Source of the DNA: Streptomyces katrae
Lineage (GTDB): Bacteria > Actinomycetota > Actinomycetes > Streptomycetales > Streptomycetaceae
NCBI RefSeq assembly: GCF_002028425.1
Contig: NZ_CP020042.1
Location: forward strand, 4,191,560-4,255,559
Direction: 5' to 3'
DNA: 64,000 bases
Made by a program: the position numbers and the translations under genes
In this document: piece by piece, positions 20,247 to 35,372 of the stretch
Layout of the letters: every line of letters starts with the position of its first letter
Position numbering within the stretch: position 1 is the first letter of the stretch
Notes under the pieces: generated by a model
What the model saw: only the letters and a program-made list of their open reading frames with translations
Told to the model about the DNA's origin: nothing
The model's database searches: none

Positions 20247-20298
20247 ACCGTTCTCCGAAACCGTTCTGCGAAACCGTTCTCCGAAACCGTTCTGCGTG
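20247..20298. repeat. 13-bp tandem repeat, four copies
   Basis: Four head-to-tail units of ACCGTTCTSCGAA at 20247, 20260, 20273 and 20286; the S base alternates C, G, C, G. It fills the gap between two convergent genes and ends 8 bp from the csoR stop. Confidence 0.9.
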
Positions 20299-25604: not shown

Positions 25605-25644
25605 TGGAGCTGTGGAGCTGTGGAGCTGTGGAGCTGTGGAGCTG
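25605..25644. repeat. 8-bp microsatellite TGGAGCTG, five copies
   Basis: Five exact head-to-tail TGGAGCTG units followed by decayed copies (TGGCGCTTCGGAGCTTCGGAGCTG), ending about 15 bp from the pstS stop codon. Likely to vary by slippage. Confidence 0.9.
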
Positions 25645-25682
25645 TGGCGCTTCGGAGCTTCGGAGCTGCGGGCTTCGAAGTC

Positions 25683-27007: not shown

Positions 27008-27303
27008 GTGGCGGACGGGCGGGTGCGGATGGGGGGGTTTGTACCTGGGATTAAGCGGGCGTTATCCGCCCGTTATGGTGCCGTGACCTTCCCTGGGCGG
27101 GGGCGCGGGGGAGGGGAGCGCGGCGGGGAGTGCGGTCGGGCGGGGGTGGCTGGATCTGGCCGGTGGCGGGGGCGGCGGTGGCCCCGGGGGGCGGGTCTGG
27201 GGGCCGGGCGGCCGGGGGCCGGGCGGGGCCGGGCGGGGCGGGGTCCCGGTGGGGCGGGAGCGGCCGGGCGGGCGGGACCTGGGGTGGGACCGGGTTCCGG
27301 CGG
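27008..27303. other. G-rich gene-free tract before the palindromic array
   Basis: No gene is seen. From about 27095 the plus strand is extremely G-rich with many runs of four or more G, able to form quadruplexes. A C-rich mirror of it lies outside the other end of the palindrome (28942-29095) and outside the third copy (35165-35300), so it appears to be part of the repeated element's flank. Confidence 0.6.
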
Positions 27304-27323
27304 GGCGGTCTCAGGGACGGGTT

Positions 27324-27468
27324 GGGGCTTTCCCGTCAGTCTCATCGTCCTTCCGCGTCGGGCCGCCCTGTCAAGGGCGCTCCTTCGTCGCGTCGCTTCG
27401 CGATCGCCTGCGGCGACCCTTGACAGGCCGTCCCGCCGCGAAATGCCGAAGACTGCCGGGAAACCCCC
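27324..27468 (+). repeat. 145-bp cap hairpin, copy 1
   Basis: Outer arms GGGGCTTTCCCGTCAGTC (27324-27341) and GACTGCCGGGAAACCCCC (27451-27468) pair with two mismatches. Inner arms CCTGTCAAGGG (27367-27377) and CCCTTGACAGG (27417-27427) are perfect. The apex contains small GAA-like triloop hairpins. Same length and spacing as the two other copies. Confidence 0.85.
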
Positions 27469-27590
27469 AAAGGAACGGGACGGACGTTCATAGGACATAC
27501 GGCGGACTCAGCGACCAGCCGGGCGGTCGGGGGCCGCCACGCCAAGCGTCCGGGCCGACAGGATTGCCATCCGGGGCCGCGATCCGCGAC

Positions 27591-28123
27591 AGATCGCTAC
27601 GCGCTCCTCCCGTCTCAGCGTCCGCCGCCTGTCTGGGGTCGTTGCCCGCACCCAAGGGCGACGGAATCGGTATCGGGGCCCGGCAGGCGCGGCAAATCGC
27701 TACGCGCTCCTCTCTCCTCGGCGTCCGGCGGCCGTCCGGGGTCTCTGCCCGCAGGAAAGGGCGACAGATTCGTCATCCAGGACTGGTGGGCGCGGCAGAT
27801 CGCTACGCGCTCCTCGAATTCCGGCGTCCGCGACCCGTCTGGGGCTGATGCCTGCACCCAAGGGCGACGGGATCGGCATCGGGGCACGGCAGGCGCCCCA
27901 GATCGCTACGCGCGCCTCGAATTCCGGCGTCCGACGACCGCCCGGGGCCGTTGCCCGCACGAAATGCCAACTGGGCCGTCATCCGGGGCCGATGGGCGCG
28001 GCAGATCGCTACGCGCTCCTCCCGTCCCGGCGTCCGACGGCCGTCGGGGCTGATACCTGCACCAAATGCCAACCAGAGGAACATCCGGAAGCAATAGGCG
28101 CGCCAGATCGCTACGCGCTGCCG
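27591..28123 (+). repeat. array A: six 103-bp repeats
   Basis: Core AGATCGCTACGCGCTCCTC starts at 27591, 27694, 27797, 27900, 28003 and 28105, a period of 103, 103, 103, 103 and 102 bp. Between cores a second block (GGCGTCCG...GTC..GGG and CTGCACCAAATGCC-like) is also conserved, so the whole unit is repeated and not only the core. In the reverse complement the core extends to GCGCGTAGCGATCTGTCGCG with 5-bp inverted ends. Confidence 0.92.
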
Positions 28124-28221
28124 AGATCTCGGCGTCCGGGCGCCGTCTTGGGCCGGTGGCGGCACCAAATGCCGGACCGCAGGGCATCCCGGCCCAAGAC
28201 GGCCGCCGGACGCCGAGGAAA

Positions 28222-28653
28222 CAGAAGCGCGTAGCGATCTTGGGCGCCTGGGGTGCCCGGATGGGCCTCTCATCGGCATTTGGTGCAGGCAGCGACCCCA
28301 GACGGGCAGCGGACGCCGGGACGGGAGGAGCCCGTAGCGATCTGGCGCGCCCTGCCGGACTCCGATGCCGATGCCATCGCCCTTTGCTGCGGGTATCAGC
28401 CCAATACGGCCGCCGGACGCCGAGATCTCGGCAGCGCGTAGCGATTTGACGCGCCCGGCGGTCCCGGATGCCCCTCCGGTCGTCATTTGGTGCGGGTACC
28501 AGCCCAGGGCGGTCGTCGGACGCCGAAATTTGAGGAGCGCGTAGCGATCTGTCGCGCCTCCCGGTCCCGGATGCCGATTCTGTCGGCCTTTCCTGCGGGC
28601 AGCGGCCCCAGGCGGGCGGCGGACGCTGAGACGGCGGGAGCGCGTAGCGATCT
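28222..28653 (-). repeat. array B: five 103-bp repeats, opposite orientation
   Basis: The core, here GAGGAGCGCGTAGCGATCT, ends at 28240, 28343, 28447, 28550 and 28653 (period 103-104). Pairwise midpoints with the array A cores 2-6 all fall at 28173, giving the palindrome centre. Confidence 0.92.
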
Positions 28654-28775
28654 GTCGCGAATTGCGGCCCCGCATGGCAATCCTGTCGGCCCGGATGCCC
28701 GGCGAGGCGGCCCCCGACCTACCCGCCTGGTCGCTGATCCCGCGTATGTCCATCGATGGACCGTGCCGTCCTTTT

Positions 28776-28920
28776 GGGGGTTTCCCGGCAGTCCTTGTCT
28801 TTCCGGTTCGGGCTGTTCTGTCAAGGGTCGCCGAAGGCGATCGCGAAGCGACGCGACGAAGGAGCGCCCTTGACAGGGCGGCCCGGGCCGGAAGGACAGT
28901 GGGACTGACGGGAAAGCCCC
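28776..28920 (+). repeat. 145-bp cap hairpin, copy 2
   Basis: Outer arms GGGGGTTTCCCGGCAGTCC (28776-28794) and GGACTGACGGGAAAGCCCC (28902-28920). Inner arms CTGTCAAGGG (28818-28827) and CCCTTGACAG (28867-28876). The 39-nt apex holds TCGCC-GAA-GGCGA (28828-28840) and TCGC-GAA-GCGA (28841-28851), two very stable GAA triloops. The last array B core ends 122 bp before it. Confidence 0.9.
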
Positions 28921-28941
28921 AAGGCTTCTCTGAGACCGCCC

Positions 28942-29095
28942 GGGGCAGACCCTGCCCTCCACCCGTCCCGGCCGGCTTGTCGCTCCAGCCCCGCCGGAGT
29001 CCCCTGCCCCCCCGCCCACCCGCACCCGGGAGACGAGGGGGGCAGACACCCATCCGCCCCCCCGCCCCCACCCCCCACCCCCCACCCCCCAGGCC
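28942..29095. other. C-rich gene-free flank of the palindrome
   Basis: No gene is seen. The plus strand is C-rich with long C runs (from about 29058 to 29093), the mirror of the G-rich tract at 27095-27300. It separates the palindrome from the end of the CHAD gene. Confidence 0.6.
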
Positions 29096-30058
29096 TCACG
29101 GCCCCGCCGGGACCGCCGCCGGTTCCCACAGGGTGTGGAAGGTCAGGCGGCTGGCTTCCACCGCGTGGCGTTGGTCGGCGTGGAGGACGCCCAGGGCGTA
29201 GGCCGTCGCCGGGGCGATGCGGGGGGTGCGGGCGGCCGTTGCCGAGGCGGTGGCCGCCTCCGCGGCGTCGCGGTGCTGGTTCAGGGCCTCGCTCGCCGCC
29301 GCCAGGCGCGGGGCTTCCTCCCCCAGGGCCTCACGGGCGTAGCGGTGCACGCGCAGCAGGCGGCGTACCTCGTGCCAGGCGGCGTCCGCGTGCGCCGAGT
29401 ACGGGGCGGAGGTATCCGTGGCGGGGAGGGCTCCGACCGCCGCCTCCAGGCGGGTGCGGGCCACCGCCGCGAGCGGGGTGAGGACGTCGTCCACCCGGCC
29501 GCCCGCCGCCACCGGGTCCAGCGGGACCTCCGAGGCCAGGACCGCCACCGCGTCCGCCACCGCGTGGAACCGGGCCGAGCCCAGCGCCTGGAGGGTCGCC
29601 GAGTGGGCCCGGGTACGGGCCAGCGTGAGCTGGCGTTCCAGCAGGGCGCCCGCGCGCGCCGAGCCGACGGTCAGTGCGCCCGCGGCGCTGCCGCGCGGGG
29701 CCGGGACCTCCGGGGAGGCCGAGAGCCGTTGCAGTGCCTCCATCAGGCGGGACAGCCGGGCGGCGTACGCGTGCTCGTCCGCCAGGGTGGAGGACAGCCA
29801 GACCAGCTCGGCGCGCAGCGGGTCCGCCCAGCTCGGCTGCGTGACGACCCGGAAGGTGCTCAGGGAGGCGGCGATGCGGCGCGCGGCCCCCCGCAGGCCG
29901 TGCGCCGCCTCTGCCGCCTCCGCGGCGTCGGGGCCGCCCCCCGCGCCCGCCGCGCCTGCGTCATGCAGGCGCAGCGCGCGCAGGAAAGCGGTGGCCTGGG
30001 AACGCAGGTAGACGCCGAGCACGTCACCTGCGGTCGGGTCATGGTTTGGCTGAGCCAC
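29096..30058 (-). CDS. CHAD-domain protein (polyphosphate-binding)
   Basis: 320-residue helical protein. CHAD features are visible: paired Arg/His-rich helices such as [32 protein letters not shown], and [24 protein letters not shown] domains bind polyphosphate through conserved His and basic residues, which fits its overlap (20 bp) with the end of the polyphosphate kinase gene. GTG start at 30058. The usual N-terminal CYTH domain is absent; this is a CHAD-only form. Confidence 0.85.
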
Positions 30059-33293: not shown

Positions 33294-34514
33294 TCAGTCG
33301 AGCTCCGCGAGCGCGTCCACCAGCGTCCGGCCCTCACACGCCCCCCGCCGGAGCAGCAGCCCGCCGACCCTGTGCAGCTCGGCCCAGGCGTGCGGGCGGC
33401 CGACCTCCGAGGCGTCGCCGATCACGCCGAGTGCCACGCTCAGGGCGGCTTCGGCCTCCCCCGCGCCCGCATGAGCATGGGCCAGGCAGGCCCCGTACCA
33501 GGCCCGGTCCCGGCGGAACGCCGGGGCGAACCCGGCCAGCCCCGAGGTCAGGTGCCCGACAGCCCCCTCCCAGTCCCTCAGGTGCAGGTCGGCCATCCCC
33601 CGCTGAGCCGCGAACCACGACTCCCCGTAGAAGTACAGCCAAGGCGGCGCGTCGACGGCGTCGGCGATGATCCGCTGTGCCTCATCCAGCCGTGCGTACG
33701 CCGCACCGCGCTCACCCTCCAGCGCGTATCCCCGTCCGGCCATCTGCACGGCCATGGCCCGCGTGGCCGCACTCGCCCCCGCCGTCGCCGCAGCGGCCTC
33801 ACCCAGCCGCACACAACGCCGCCCCTCACTCCCCGACCACGCCAGATGCGCCTTCATGCTCATGGTGGTGGCGGCCATATCGCCGTACCCCGACTCAAGC
33901 GCCCAGTCATAGGACCGGTCGAACCACCCCAGCGCCACCGGGGCGTTGTCCTGGTCCTGCGCCACCCAGGCCAGGAACTGCGCGTACTCGGCGAGCAGCT
34001 TCACCACCCGGTCCGCGAGTGCCCCCCGAGCCTGCCCGTAGAGCCCTGCCACCTCCCTGAACTGGGCGATGACGAGCGGTGCAATGGTCCGCGACCCCAC
34101 AGTGTCCTCGGCCCGGCGGTGCGCGGCCAACAGGGCATCCATCGCATCCACCGAGGCGACATCCAGCCGCAGCCCACCCGCCTTCACCCGGCCCAGCCGC
34201 TCACCGTCGGCCTCCGACACCACCCCAGGCAGCACGAGCGAGGGCAATGGCATCCCTTCCTGCCGGACCCCGAGGAGTTCCACGGGCACGCCGAGCCCGT
34301 GGATGATCCGCTGCCGCACTTTGACCGAGGTCACCGCACGCGGCCGGTTCTCGATGGCGGAGACATCGGGCTGCGCCAGGCCCACCAGCGCACCAACCCG
34401 ACTCTGGCTGCTGCGCGTCAACCTCCGCCACGCCTTCAACAGACCGCCCCAGTCCTCGGCCGCCGCAGCCGCCCGCAGTTCGGGGTGCACCCACACGTCC
34501 AGCTCGGGCTCCAC
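33294..34514 (-). CDS. XRE-type regulator with TPR-like C-terminus
   Basis: 406 residues. N-terminal helix-turn-helix of the Cro/XRE kind (GGLLKAWRRLTRSSQSRVGALVGLAQPDVSAIENRPRAVTSVKV, about residues 24-68) followed by about 300 residues of alpha-helical repeats with TPR-like pairs (YDWALESGYGDMAATTMSMKAHLAW, AYARLDEAQRIIADAVDAPP, AQRGMADLHLRDWEGAVGHL). Such regulators often sense peptides or partner proteins. GTG at 34514 gives a normal N-terminus and overlaps the operator-like repeats just upstream. A related truncated gene follows in the same frame after its stop. Confidence 0.8.
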   Translation of the reverse strand: MEPELDVWVHPELRAAAAAEDWGGLLKAWRRLTRSSQSRVGALVGLAQPDVSAIENRPRAVTSVKVRQRIIHGLGVPVELLGVRQEGMPLPSLVLPGVVSEADGERLGRVKAGGLRLDVASVDAMDALLAAHRRAEDTVGSRTIAPLVIAQFREVAGLYGQARGALADRVVKLLAEYAQFLAWVAQDQDNAPVALGWFDRSYDWALESGYGDMAATTMSMKAHLAWSGSEGRRCVRLGEAAAATAGASAATRAMAVQMAGRGYALEGERGAAYARLDEAQRIIADAVDAPPWLYFYGESWFAAQRGMADLHLRDWEGAVGHLTSGLAGFAPAFRRDRAWYGACLAHAHAGAGEAEAALSVALGVIGDASEVGRPHAWAELHRVGGLLLRRGACEGRTLVDALAELD

Positions 34515-34522
34515 CCTCGAAA

Positions 34523-34543
34523 TATAGGACGGCCCTATAGGAC
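34523..34543. promoter_or_regulatory. operator-like repeat at the XRE gene start
   Basis: TATAGG-N5-CCTATA (34523-34539) is a perfect inverted repeat, and TATAGGAC occurs twice as a direct repeat (34523-34530 and 34536-34543). It ends 8 bp from the GTG of the regulator, so it should overlap the -10 region and could mediate autoregulation. Confidence 0.6.
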
Positions 34544-34630
34544 GCGGCTGAGCCCAACGCCGAGCTGCTCGACCCGCGTCCGGCCGGGAGTTCACCACCG
34601 CCGTCGCCAACGTCCAGCCCGCCTATGACC

Positions 34631-34886
34631 AGCCCAAGACGGCCGCCGGTCGCCGAGACCTGGGCAGCGCGTAGCGATCTGTCGCGCCCGGCGGTCCCGA
34701 ATGCCCCTCCGGTCGTCATTTGGTGCGGGTATCAGCCCAGGACGGTCGTCGGACGCCAAATTTCGAGGAGCGCGTAGCGATCTGTCGCGCCCCCCGGCCC
34801 TGGATGACGATCTCCTCGTCCTTTCCTGCGGGCAGCGGCCACAGGCGGGCGGCGGACGCTGGGACGGCAGGAGCGCGTAGCGATCT
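34631..34886 (-). repeat. array C: three 103-bp repeats (third copy of the element)
   Basis: Cores (GCGCGTAGCGATCT) end at 34680, 34783 and 34886, exactly 103 bp apart. The inter-core sequence of units 1-2 is about 90% identical to that between cores 3 and 4 of array B (CGGCGGTCCCG.ATGCCCC, GTCGTCATTTGGTGCGGGTA), and units 2-3 match cores 4-5, so units correspond by position from the hairpin. The array stops abruptly near 34631, 20 bp from the leftmost frame of the XRE region. Confidence 0.92.
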
Positions 34887-35009
34887 GTCGCGGATCGCGG
34901 CCCCGATGCACTGTCTCGTCGGCCCGGACGCTTGGCGGGGCGGCCCCCGCCGCCCCCGAAGGGTCCCTGATCCCGCCGGATGCCTCAGGTACGACCGTGC
35001 CGTCCTTTT

Positions 35010-35154
35010 GGGGGTTTCCCGTCAGTCCTTGTCTTTCCGGGGCGGGGCGGGCTGTCAAGGGTCGCCGAAGGCGATCGCGAAGCGACGCGACGAAGGAGCG
35101 CCCTTGACTGACCGGCCCGAACCGGAAGGACAGTGGGACTGACGGGAAACCCCC
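35010..35154 (+). repeat. 145-bp cap hairpin, copy 3
   Basis: Outer arms GGGGGTTTCCCGTCAGTCC (35010-35028) and GGACTGACGGGAAACCCCC (35136-35154) are perfect over 19 bp. Inner TGTCAAGGG / CCCTTGACT arms and the same GAA-triloop apex as copy 2. It lies 123 bp after the last core of array C and is followed by CTCTGAGACC and a C-rich tract, as in copy 2. The 35155-35372 stretch up to the mycothiol synthase gene holds no gene. Confidence 0.92.
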
Positions 35155-35372
35155 AGCCCTTCTCTGAGACCGGCCCGCCGGGACCCCGATGACCACCGGC
35201 CCCGGTCAGCCGCTCACCCCCCGCCCGGCGGCAGACCGCCCCCCACCCCCCGCCCCGCACCCGGGGAGGCGGGTGGGCAAACACCGGCCGGGCCCGACCC
35301 CTCGAGGGGGAGATGGCGGGCCCCAGCCGGGGGAGCACCCGCAGCCGCGGCGGCCCCCCGCCGCGAGACCCC

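Follow-up and report, generated by a model that had tools for sequence, protein, structure and literature searches.

In the 64,000-nt stretch of the Streptomyces katrae genome analysed here (the window; contig NZ_CP020042.1, positions 4,191,560 to 4,255,559), the region between pstS and a CHAD gene contains a repeat element (27304-28941) that is one copy of a family dispersed in this genome and present in other Streptomyces species. We show here that a complete copy consists of two arms in inverted orientation, with the hairpin outermost and units of ~103 bp inward, which is either empty or encloses cargo. The copies probably represent a family of non-autonomous, foldback-like cassettes, whose arms and cargo would be exchanged by recombination between copies. 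Genomes and loci are designated below by G and L numbers, respectively.

Build and distribution of the family

The core motif CAGATCGCTACGCGCTCC (≤ 5 mismatches) was found six times on the + strand of the left array (27590, 27693, 27796, 27899, 28002, 28104) and five times on the - strand of the right array (28224, 28327, 28431, 28534, 28637), with a spacing of 102-104 bp and the arrays convergent. Outward of each array, beyond a gap, lies a hairpin (left ~27323-27470, right ~28772-28921), for which single-strand DNA folding gave z = -3.06 and -4.23. Motif positions and folding thus confirmed the two convergent, hairpin-capped arrays of 6 + 5 units with a 103-bp period that an earlier reading of the letters of the window, the original prediction, had described. 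Inverted blocks reach at most 376 and 239 nt, with a complementarity of 79%, and the arms meet at the centre without cargo. Bearing on a coding repeat, the period of 103 bp is not divisible by three, and the open reading frames (ORFs) that cross the arrays use several different frames. The limits 27304 and 28941 of the original prediction describe the structure correctly and its extent too tightly, as outer blocks end 56-147 nt past the hairpin in related copies; relative to the related genome G012, the insertion spans 27026-29134 by BLAST and ~27090-29095 by eye.

A search of the window genome with this copy gave 107 matches, which were grouped into 32 places (30 of them outside the window); this is a lower bound, with 40 of 184 first-look candidates scored. 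The comparison with the rest of the genome and with other Streptomyces that had been suggested returned 31 hairpin-bearing copies here (20 pairs and 11 single arms, by hairpin profile) and relatives in other species; a further place in the window genome, L016, holds unit remnants without a hairpin. The single locus seen originally was one of these copies, and a second, one-armed copy at 34632-35325 and the cargo of other copies had been missed.

Complete copies have one common build. From outside to inside, a full arm comprises the outer terminus GGGCCCGCCATCTCCCCCTCGAGGGG (at a distance of 56-147 nt from the hairpin where found, namely in the window genome, G173 and G038), the end motif GGCGGTCTCAG, a hairpin of ~145 nt, a gap, and 1-6 units of ~103 bp. 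The inner arm end, GATCGCTACRCRCT...CGGCCGTCTGTGGCTGGWCATARGC, is conserved across species, and cargo starts at or just behind it, as read by eye. With a length of about 450-900 bp, the arms are long inverted repeats composed of tandem sub-repeats. All adjacent hairpin pairs in the fetched genomes (65/65) had the inverted +- orientation, as did all 22 further pairs from 44 named loci, of which at least one was counted twice (L249 repeats L074) and from which nine NBC_00249 loci were left out as duplicates of G173. Misassembly is unlikely because independent genomes carry the same build. The arms of L026 and L027 lack the GGCGGTCTCAG end and belong to a hairpin subfamily of their own; one arm of each is 97% alike over 595 bp, and both copies lie between divergent genes.

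The two parts of the arm differ in their structural signal. In an alignment of 40 chosen hairpins, 96.8% of the cells were paired and 10 of 34 pairs had changed on both sides. The covariation score of 0.129, for a structure derived from this same alignment, compares with 0.056 after shuffling and was reached by none of 500 shuffles; slid versions scored at most 0.047. A further measure, the number of further pair types, was equalled by 45 of the 500 shuffles. Judged by these substitutions, the hairpin is shown here to be under selection as a structure. The original prediction had offered an array of structured RNAs as one explanation, to which the regular tandem units and the hairpin covariation would be suited. 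This is extremely improbable: the units folded no better than shuffled sequences (mean z +0.39 and +0.19 for the two strands, 40 of 159 units sampled per strand), a 60-unit alignment contained no covariation, so that only the capping hairpin covaries, and an Rfam scan of the window at the gathering score matched only 23S and 5S rRNA. The unit core is strongly conserved across the 159 units, which had, however, been chosen by that same motif. The repeats do not have the build of an array of clustered regularly interspaced short palindromic repeats, as they match across whole 103-bp units and beyond with 66-80% identity, no search aimed at cas genes having been made.

In a BLAST survey of 199 Streptomyces genomes with two candidates scored per genome, 53 genomes including that of the window had matches at E 1e-3, many of them weak. 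An exact hairpin-loop pattern was present in 19 of the 199, again including the window genome, and missed G054, which has copies; phylum-wide it occurred in one of 346 genomes, namely the window genome. With another exact pattern, all 53 named stretches were from Streptomyces, e.g., S. lavendulae, S. goshikiensis, S. katrae, S. virginiae, and S. xanthophaeus. A search of a phage collection, bearing on a phage origin, gave no match. Six records matched in a plasmid collection, five from Streptomyces and one from Nocardia; three of the former and the Nocardia record match just 3-5% of the query.

Cargo genes

According to a heuristic gene call based on the G+C content of third codon positions (GC3), 33 of the 65 pairs enclose at least one gene; the call misses some cargo, e.g., the L090 glycosyltransferase, and accepted a number of small ORFs that are doubtful. 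Cargo-bearing copies contain one to four unrelated accessory genes. By Pfam, these encode regulators (helix-turn-helix (HTH)/TPR, GntR, MerR, MarR, TetR and AraC-type) and, among others, NUDIX, glyoxalase-like, SDR, aldo-keto reductase, GNAT, HAD, CYTH, CutA1, glycosyltransferase and aminotransferase class IV proteins. We scanned 77 proteins singly: 63 from alignment A1 (51 of 74 called ORFs plus 12 others, some of which adjoin single arms), 10 encoded at named loci, and another 4. Two of the 77 were of transposase type, IS701-like in L179 (PF13546) and IS5-like in L035 (PF13340), and are probably nested insertion sequences (IS). With these two set aside as nested IS, no autonomous, transposase-bearing copy was found.

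Five of the 63 proteins matched the NCBIfam model NsdA_fam_reg. A small protein of ~70-100 amino acids (SEQYEYVPHRLL...), for which Pfam has no family, is repeatedly encoded at the inner arm end. It has 467 homologues, the names among the 120 listed being all Streptomyces, and occurs in several copies per genome (L079, L171, L172, L177 and L178 in G173; L015, L022 and L030 in the window genome). Some cargo at different sites is related between genomes: an HTH regulator of L010 and L178 is 76% identical and lies inside arms in both, and a GntR regulator (82.5%, L016/L079) and a NUDIX protein (78.5%, L018/L078) adjoin a remnant or a single arm in the window genome. Among individual cargo genes, L241:5285-5964 of Streptomyces lavendulae CCM 3239 contains between its arms a pair resembling an antitoxin and a PIN-domain toxin, the PIN match being weak and below the cut-off. 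The cargo proteins encoded at L255:5664-6971 and L173:6181-7299 contain Beta-lactamase and APH (phosphotransferase) Pfam domains, and the regulator at L182:5095-5958 (G134) matches the Pfam domains Cass2 ('integron-associated effector binding protein'), AraC-type and GyrI-like.

Insertion, shared sites and proposed exchange between copies

The gap between pstS and the CHAD gene is 2157 bp in the window genome and ~180 bp in G012, whose flanks are 80% (pstS) and 77% (CHAD) identical to the window. The BLAST alignment of the two extends through 27025 and resumes at 29135, and by eye its left part reaches ~27088. By this alignment, the window copy is an insertion of ~2 kb between pstS and the CHAD gene relative to G012. 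At the other 29 loci fetched in the pstS-CHAD search the hairpin had no match, and there was one 33-bp unit match; pstS was within reach at 13 of the loci, G012 included, besides a weak match at L126. Similarly, otsA and otsB of the window genome are separated by 2462 bp containing arms and a gene for 245 amino acids. Of 15 chosen genomes, 14 have otsA, and in 11 of these otsB is adjacent without a hairpin, with gaps of 50-461 bp in ten clear calls (G041 is rearranged) and one 20-bp unit match in G012; in two, otsB was not within reach, and the copy at this site in G173 has a single arm and no called cargo. For the L026 site, G038 was the only informative genome and has both neighbours with a different gene between them and no arms. 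Among the three guesses of the original prediction, a non-autonomous mobile element is best supported because copies are dispersed and relatives have empty sites. That the element is a fixed structural or regulatory repeat, for instance in condensation or termination, with no role in moving genes and with genes enclosed by chance, would suit the covarying conserved hairpin and the regularly repeated core motif. We regard it as very unlikely, since insertion and cargo differ between species and a minority of Streptomyces carry the exact pattern (19/199).

For a comparison of sites, elements were mapped in the window genome and in G173, G134, G054, G083 and G074. Both flanks were shared by 24 cross-genome element pairs at 17 sites: five with cargo on both sides, five with cargo on one side only (two of which, involving L084 and L197, rest on doubtful ORFs), two empty on both sides and twelve with a single arm. 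In none of the five pairs with cargo on both sides was it homologous, compared to 9 of 420 cross-genome cargo pairs in the background. On these five cases, sharing a site does not entail sharing cargo. The window genome (31 copies) and G173 (15) share nine sites, where ~0.07 would be expected if 6500 sites were equal, an assumption of our own.

Such changes of cargo might also take place with the arms as passive bystanders, e.g., as two-way terminators or insulators, at a hotspot of horizontal gene transfer where homologous recombination occurs in the flanking core genes. The flanking genes are indeed conserved around changed cargo, hairpin ends face the 3' ends of genes more often than 5' ends (82 vs 53, p = 0.016, copies not being independent), and hotspots without a visible mobile element have been ascribed to recombination in flanking conserved genes (PMC8627663). 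This explanation leaves the location of cargo between inverted arms, the many empty pairs and the genome-specific likeness of the arms unaccounted for, and we consider it improbable.

Regarding this likeness, 139 hairpins were compared, with one G012 place entering twice. The nearest match was in the same genome in 123 cases, in the same element in 14 and in another genome in 2, left and right arms being interspersed. The mean arm identity was 0.852 at 11 orthologous site pairs (some matched by just one flank), compared to 0.857 for all pairs of the same two genomes, and within elements it was 0.905. By these identities, arms resemble others of their own genome rather than those of their own site. 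L022 is 95.7% identical to the window copy over 1082 bp and then 80% over query positions 1196-1638, the kind of mosaic expected from a conversion tract or from recombination. Recombination between arms is thereby indicated, which retains this half of the recombination or condensation site considered originally.

A different mode of movement would be that of a mobile insertion cassette (MIC) or miniature inverted-repeat transposable element (MITE) of an ordinary IS family, in which a transposase encoded elsewhere moves arms and cargo as a unit by cut and paste and shared sites reflect target preference. Empty sites in relatives and the conserved outer terminus GGGCCCGCCATCTCCCCCTCGAGGGG speak for it, as do four copies in G054, all empty, ~1.05 kb long and located at different positions, which are 92-95.5% alike over nearly their full length in five of six pairings. 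It is nevertheless rather unlikely: no target duplication was found, the arms of ~450-900 bp with 145-nt hairpins are unlike known ends of IS, a cognate transposase was not found among the element proteins scanned, and neither the mosaic copies nor the nine sites common to two species are in line with it.

In our preferred model, that of foldback-like cassettes exchanged through their arms, the conserved unit core would be a putative protein-binding site, repeated about ten helical turns apart, and a trans-acting enzyme would first have placed the elements. Their long and similar arms could then recombine or convert with arms elsewhere, which would homogenise them, and recombination in the arms would allow cargo to be lost, gained or swapped with the site staying in place. 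More tentatively, the elements may form a genome-wide docking system with dozens of fixed hairpin-capped sites, in which any arm-bearing cassette can replace the cargo at any site, within the cell or after conjugation, and by which Streptomyces species would keep sites and turn over genes.

Several observations weigh against exchange through the arms. Dispersal and exchange are what we infer, because neither a target duplication nor a partner enzyme nor an excised or moving form was found. The test for target-site duplication covered 64 pairs with uncertain outer boundaries, and the longest direct end matches were not above those of mismatched partners. A transposase or recombinase as a regular component was not found among the 77 proteins, and the cargo genes rest on the GC3 call. 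The absence of homologous cargo in five shared-site pairs equals the expectation for unrelated cargo, and five cases are few; moreover, L091 (G074) and L198 (G083) have the neighbours on one side in common and cargo at 77%. The outer flanks at nine shared-site pairs were weakly more alike than random (mean score 48 vs 37, sd 23); as this likeness is weak, common descent of the insertions is unproven, and inherited insertions are not distinguishable from repeated ones at these sites. Finally, in some genomes unrelated copies reach identities (0.87-0.95) that the arms within elements do not exceed.

The second copy in the window (~34632-35325) is one-armed and is accompanied by a probable cargo ORF and by what remains of a copy of the small protein; the ppk side yielded no second arm. 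Its features and those of the first copy are listed in Table 1. Two short tandem repeats were also present in the window, eight copies of the 8-bp unit TGGAGCTG at 25605-25668 between pstS and the next pst gene, and the 13-bp unit ACCGTTCTCCGAA at 20247-20296.

Table 1. Coordinates of features of the two window copies and of transposase genes within elements at other loci.
Feature	Position	Strand	Remark
Left outer G-rich block outside hairpin	27090..27303	+	Inserted relative to G012; left boundary judged by eye
Left arm end motif GGCGGTCTCAG and capping hairpin	27304..27470	+	
Left hairpin-array gap	27471..27584	+	Conserved among copies
Left array	27585..28173	+	6 units of ~103 bp
Meeting point of arms	28140..28205	.	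Cargo-free here; position of genes in cargo copies
Right array	28190..28660	-	5 units, innermost partial
Right array-hairpin gap	28661..28765	-	
Right capping hairpin and end motif	28766..28941	-	
Right outer block	28942..29095	-	Reaches stop of CHAD gene
Second copy, cargo candidate	33294..34610	-	438-aa ORF; no Pfam family at E 0.001
Second copy, 3' remnant of recurrent small cargo protein (GREFTTAVANVQPAYDQP)	34585..34640	+	Inner arm end; sequence read by eye
Second copy, array	34632..34892	-	3 units; core at 34664, 34767, 34870
Second copy, hairpin	35001..35172	-	
Second copy, outer block	35173..35325	-	Terminus TCGAGGGGGAGATGGC at 35302-35317
IS701-like transposase within element	L179:6507-7955 (G173)		Probably nested IS
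IS5-like transposase within element	L035:3890-4384		Probably nested IS

Relation to known elements

MICs carry passenger genes. Bacterial MICs and MITEs are IS-related elements without a transposase gene of their own (PMC3129680). The family described here resembles them in its inverted ends (65/65 pairs) and in the rarity of transposase genes inside the elements (two transposase-type proteins among 77 scanned), and differs from them in its ~450-900-bp arms of hairpin and tandem units, its site-varying cargo, and in that a cognate transposase and a target duplication were not found. Among bacterial elements, the MIC is the closest kind.

The closest described build is that of the foldback-like transposon Galileo of Drosophila, which, according to passages of PMC3573991, occurs as two-arm, solo-arm and chimeric copies. 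The tandem repeats in its arms have been proposed as secondary transposase sites, and its long repetitive arms to attract recombination and conversion. Long inverted arms of tandem sub-repeats are common to both families; Galileo, however, is eukaryotic with a known transposase of the P superfamily, and these passages mention neither a hairpin cap nor turnover of diverse intact cargo genes. A Foldback/Galileo (P-type) transposase domain was absent from the cargo proteins scanned, no genome-wide search having been made.

Integron cassettes are exchangeable small genes bounded by folded hairpin sites. In contrast to them, the present family has two inverted arms per cassette and dispersed single sites; no integrase domain was detected in the 77 proteins scanned, the attC consensus and an integron platform not having been searched for. 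The BrickBuilt MITE of Porphyromonas gingivalis is intergenic with an internal tandem repeat and 19 copies in one genome, and differs by its 23-nt repeat and small inverted-repeat ends, with cargo genes unmentioned in the abstract (PMC4596501). The literature searched, which comprised listings and openings of abstracts with preprints and most subscription journals outside it, held no description of such a family, in agreement with the original prediction, and it is apparently undescribed.

Many cargo changes of the kind known from hotspots without a visible mobile element lie here between recognisable conserved arms. Should the arms drive the exchange, the turnover of genes in a genus that produces drugs would gain a concrete sequence feature to follow across strain collections and to test at the bench, and the foldback architecture would gain a cargo-carrying counterpart in bacteria.
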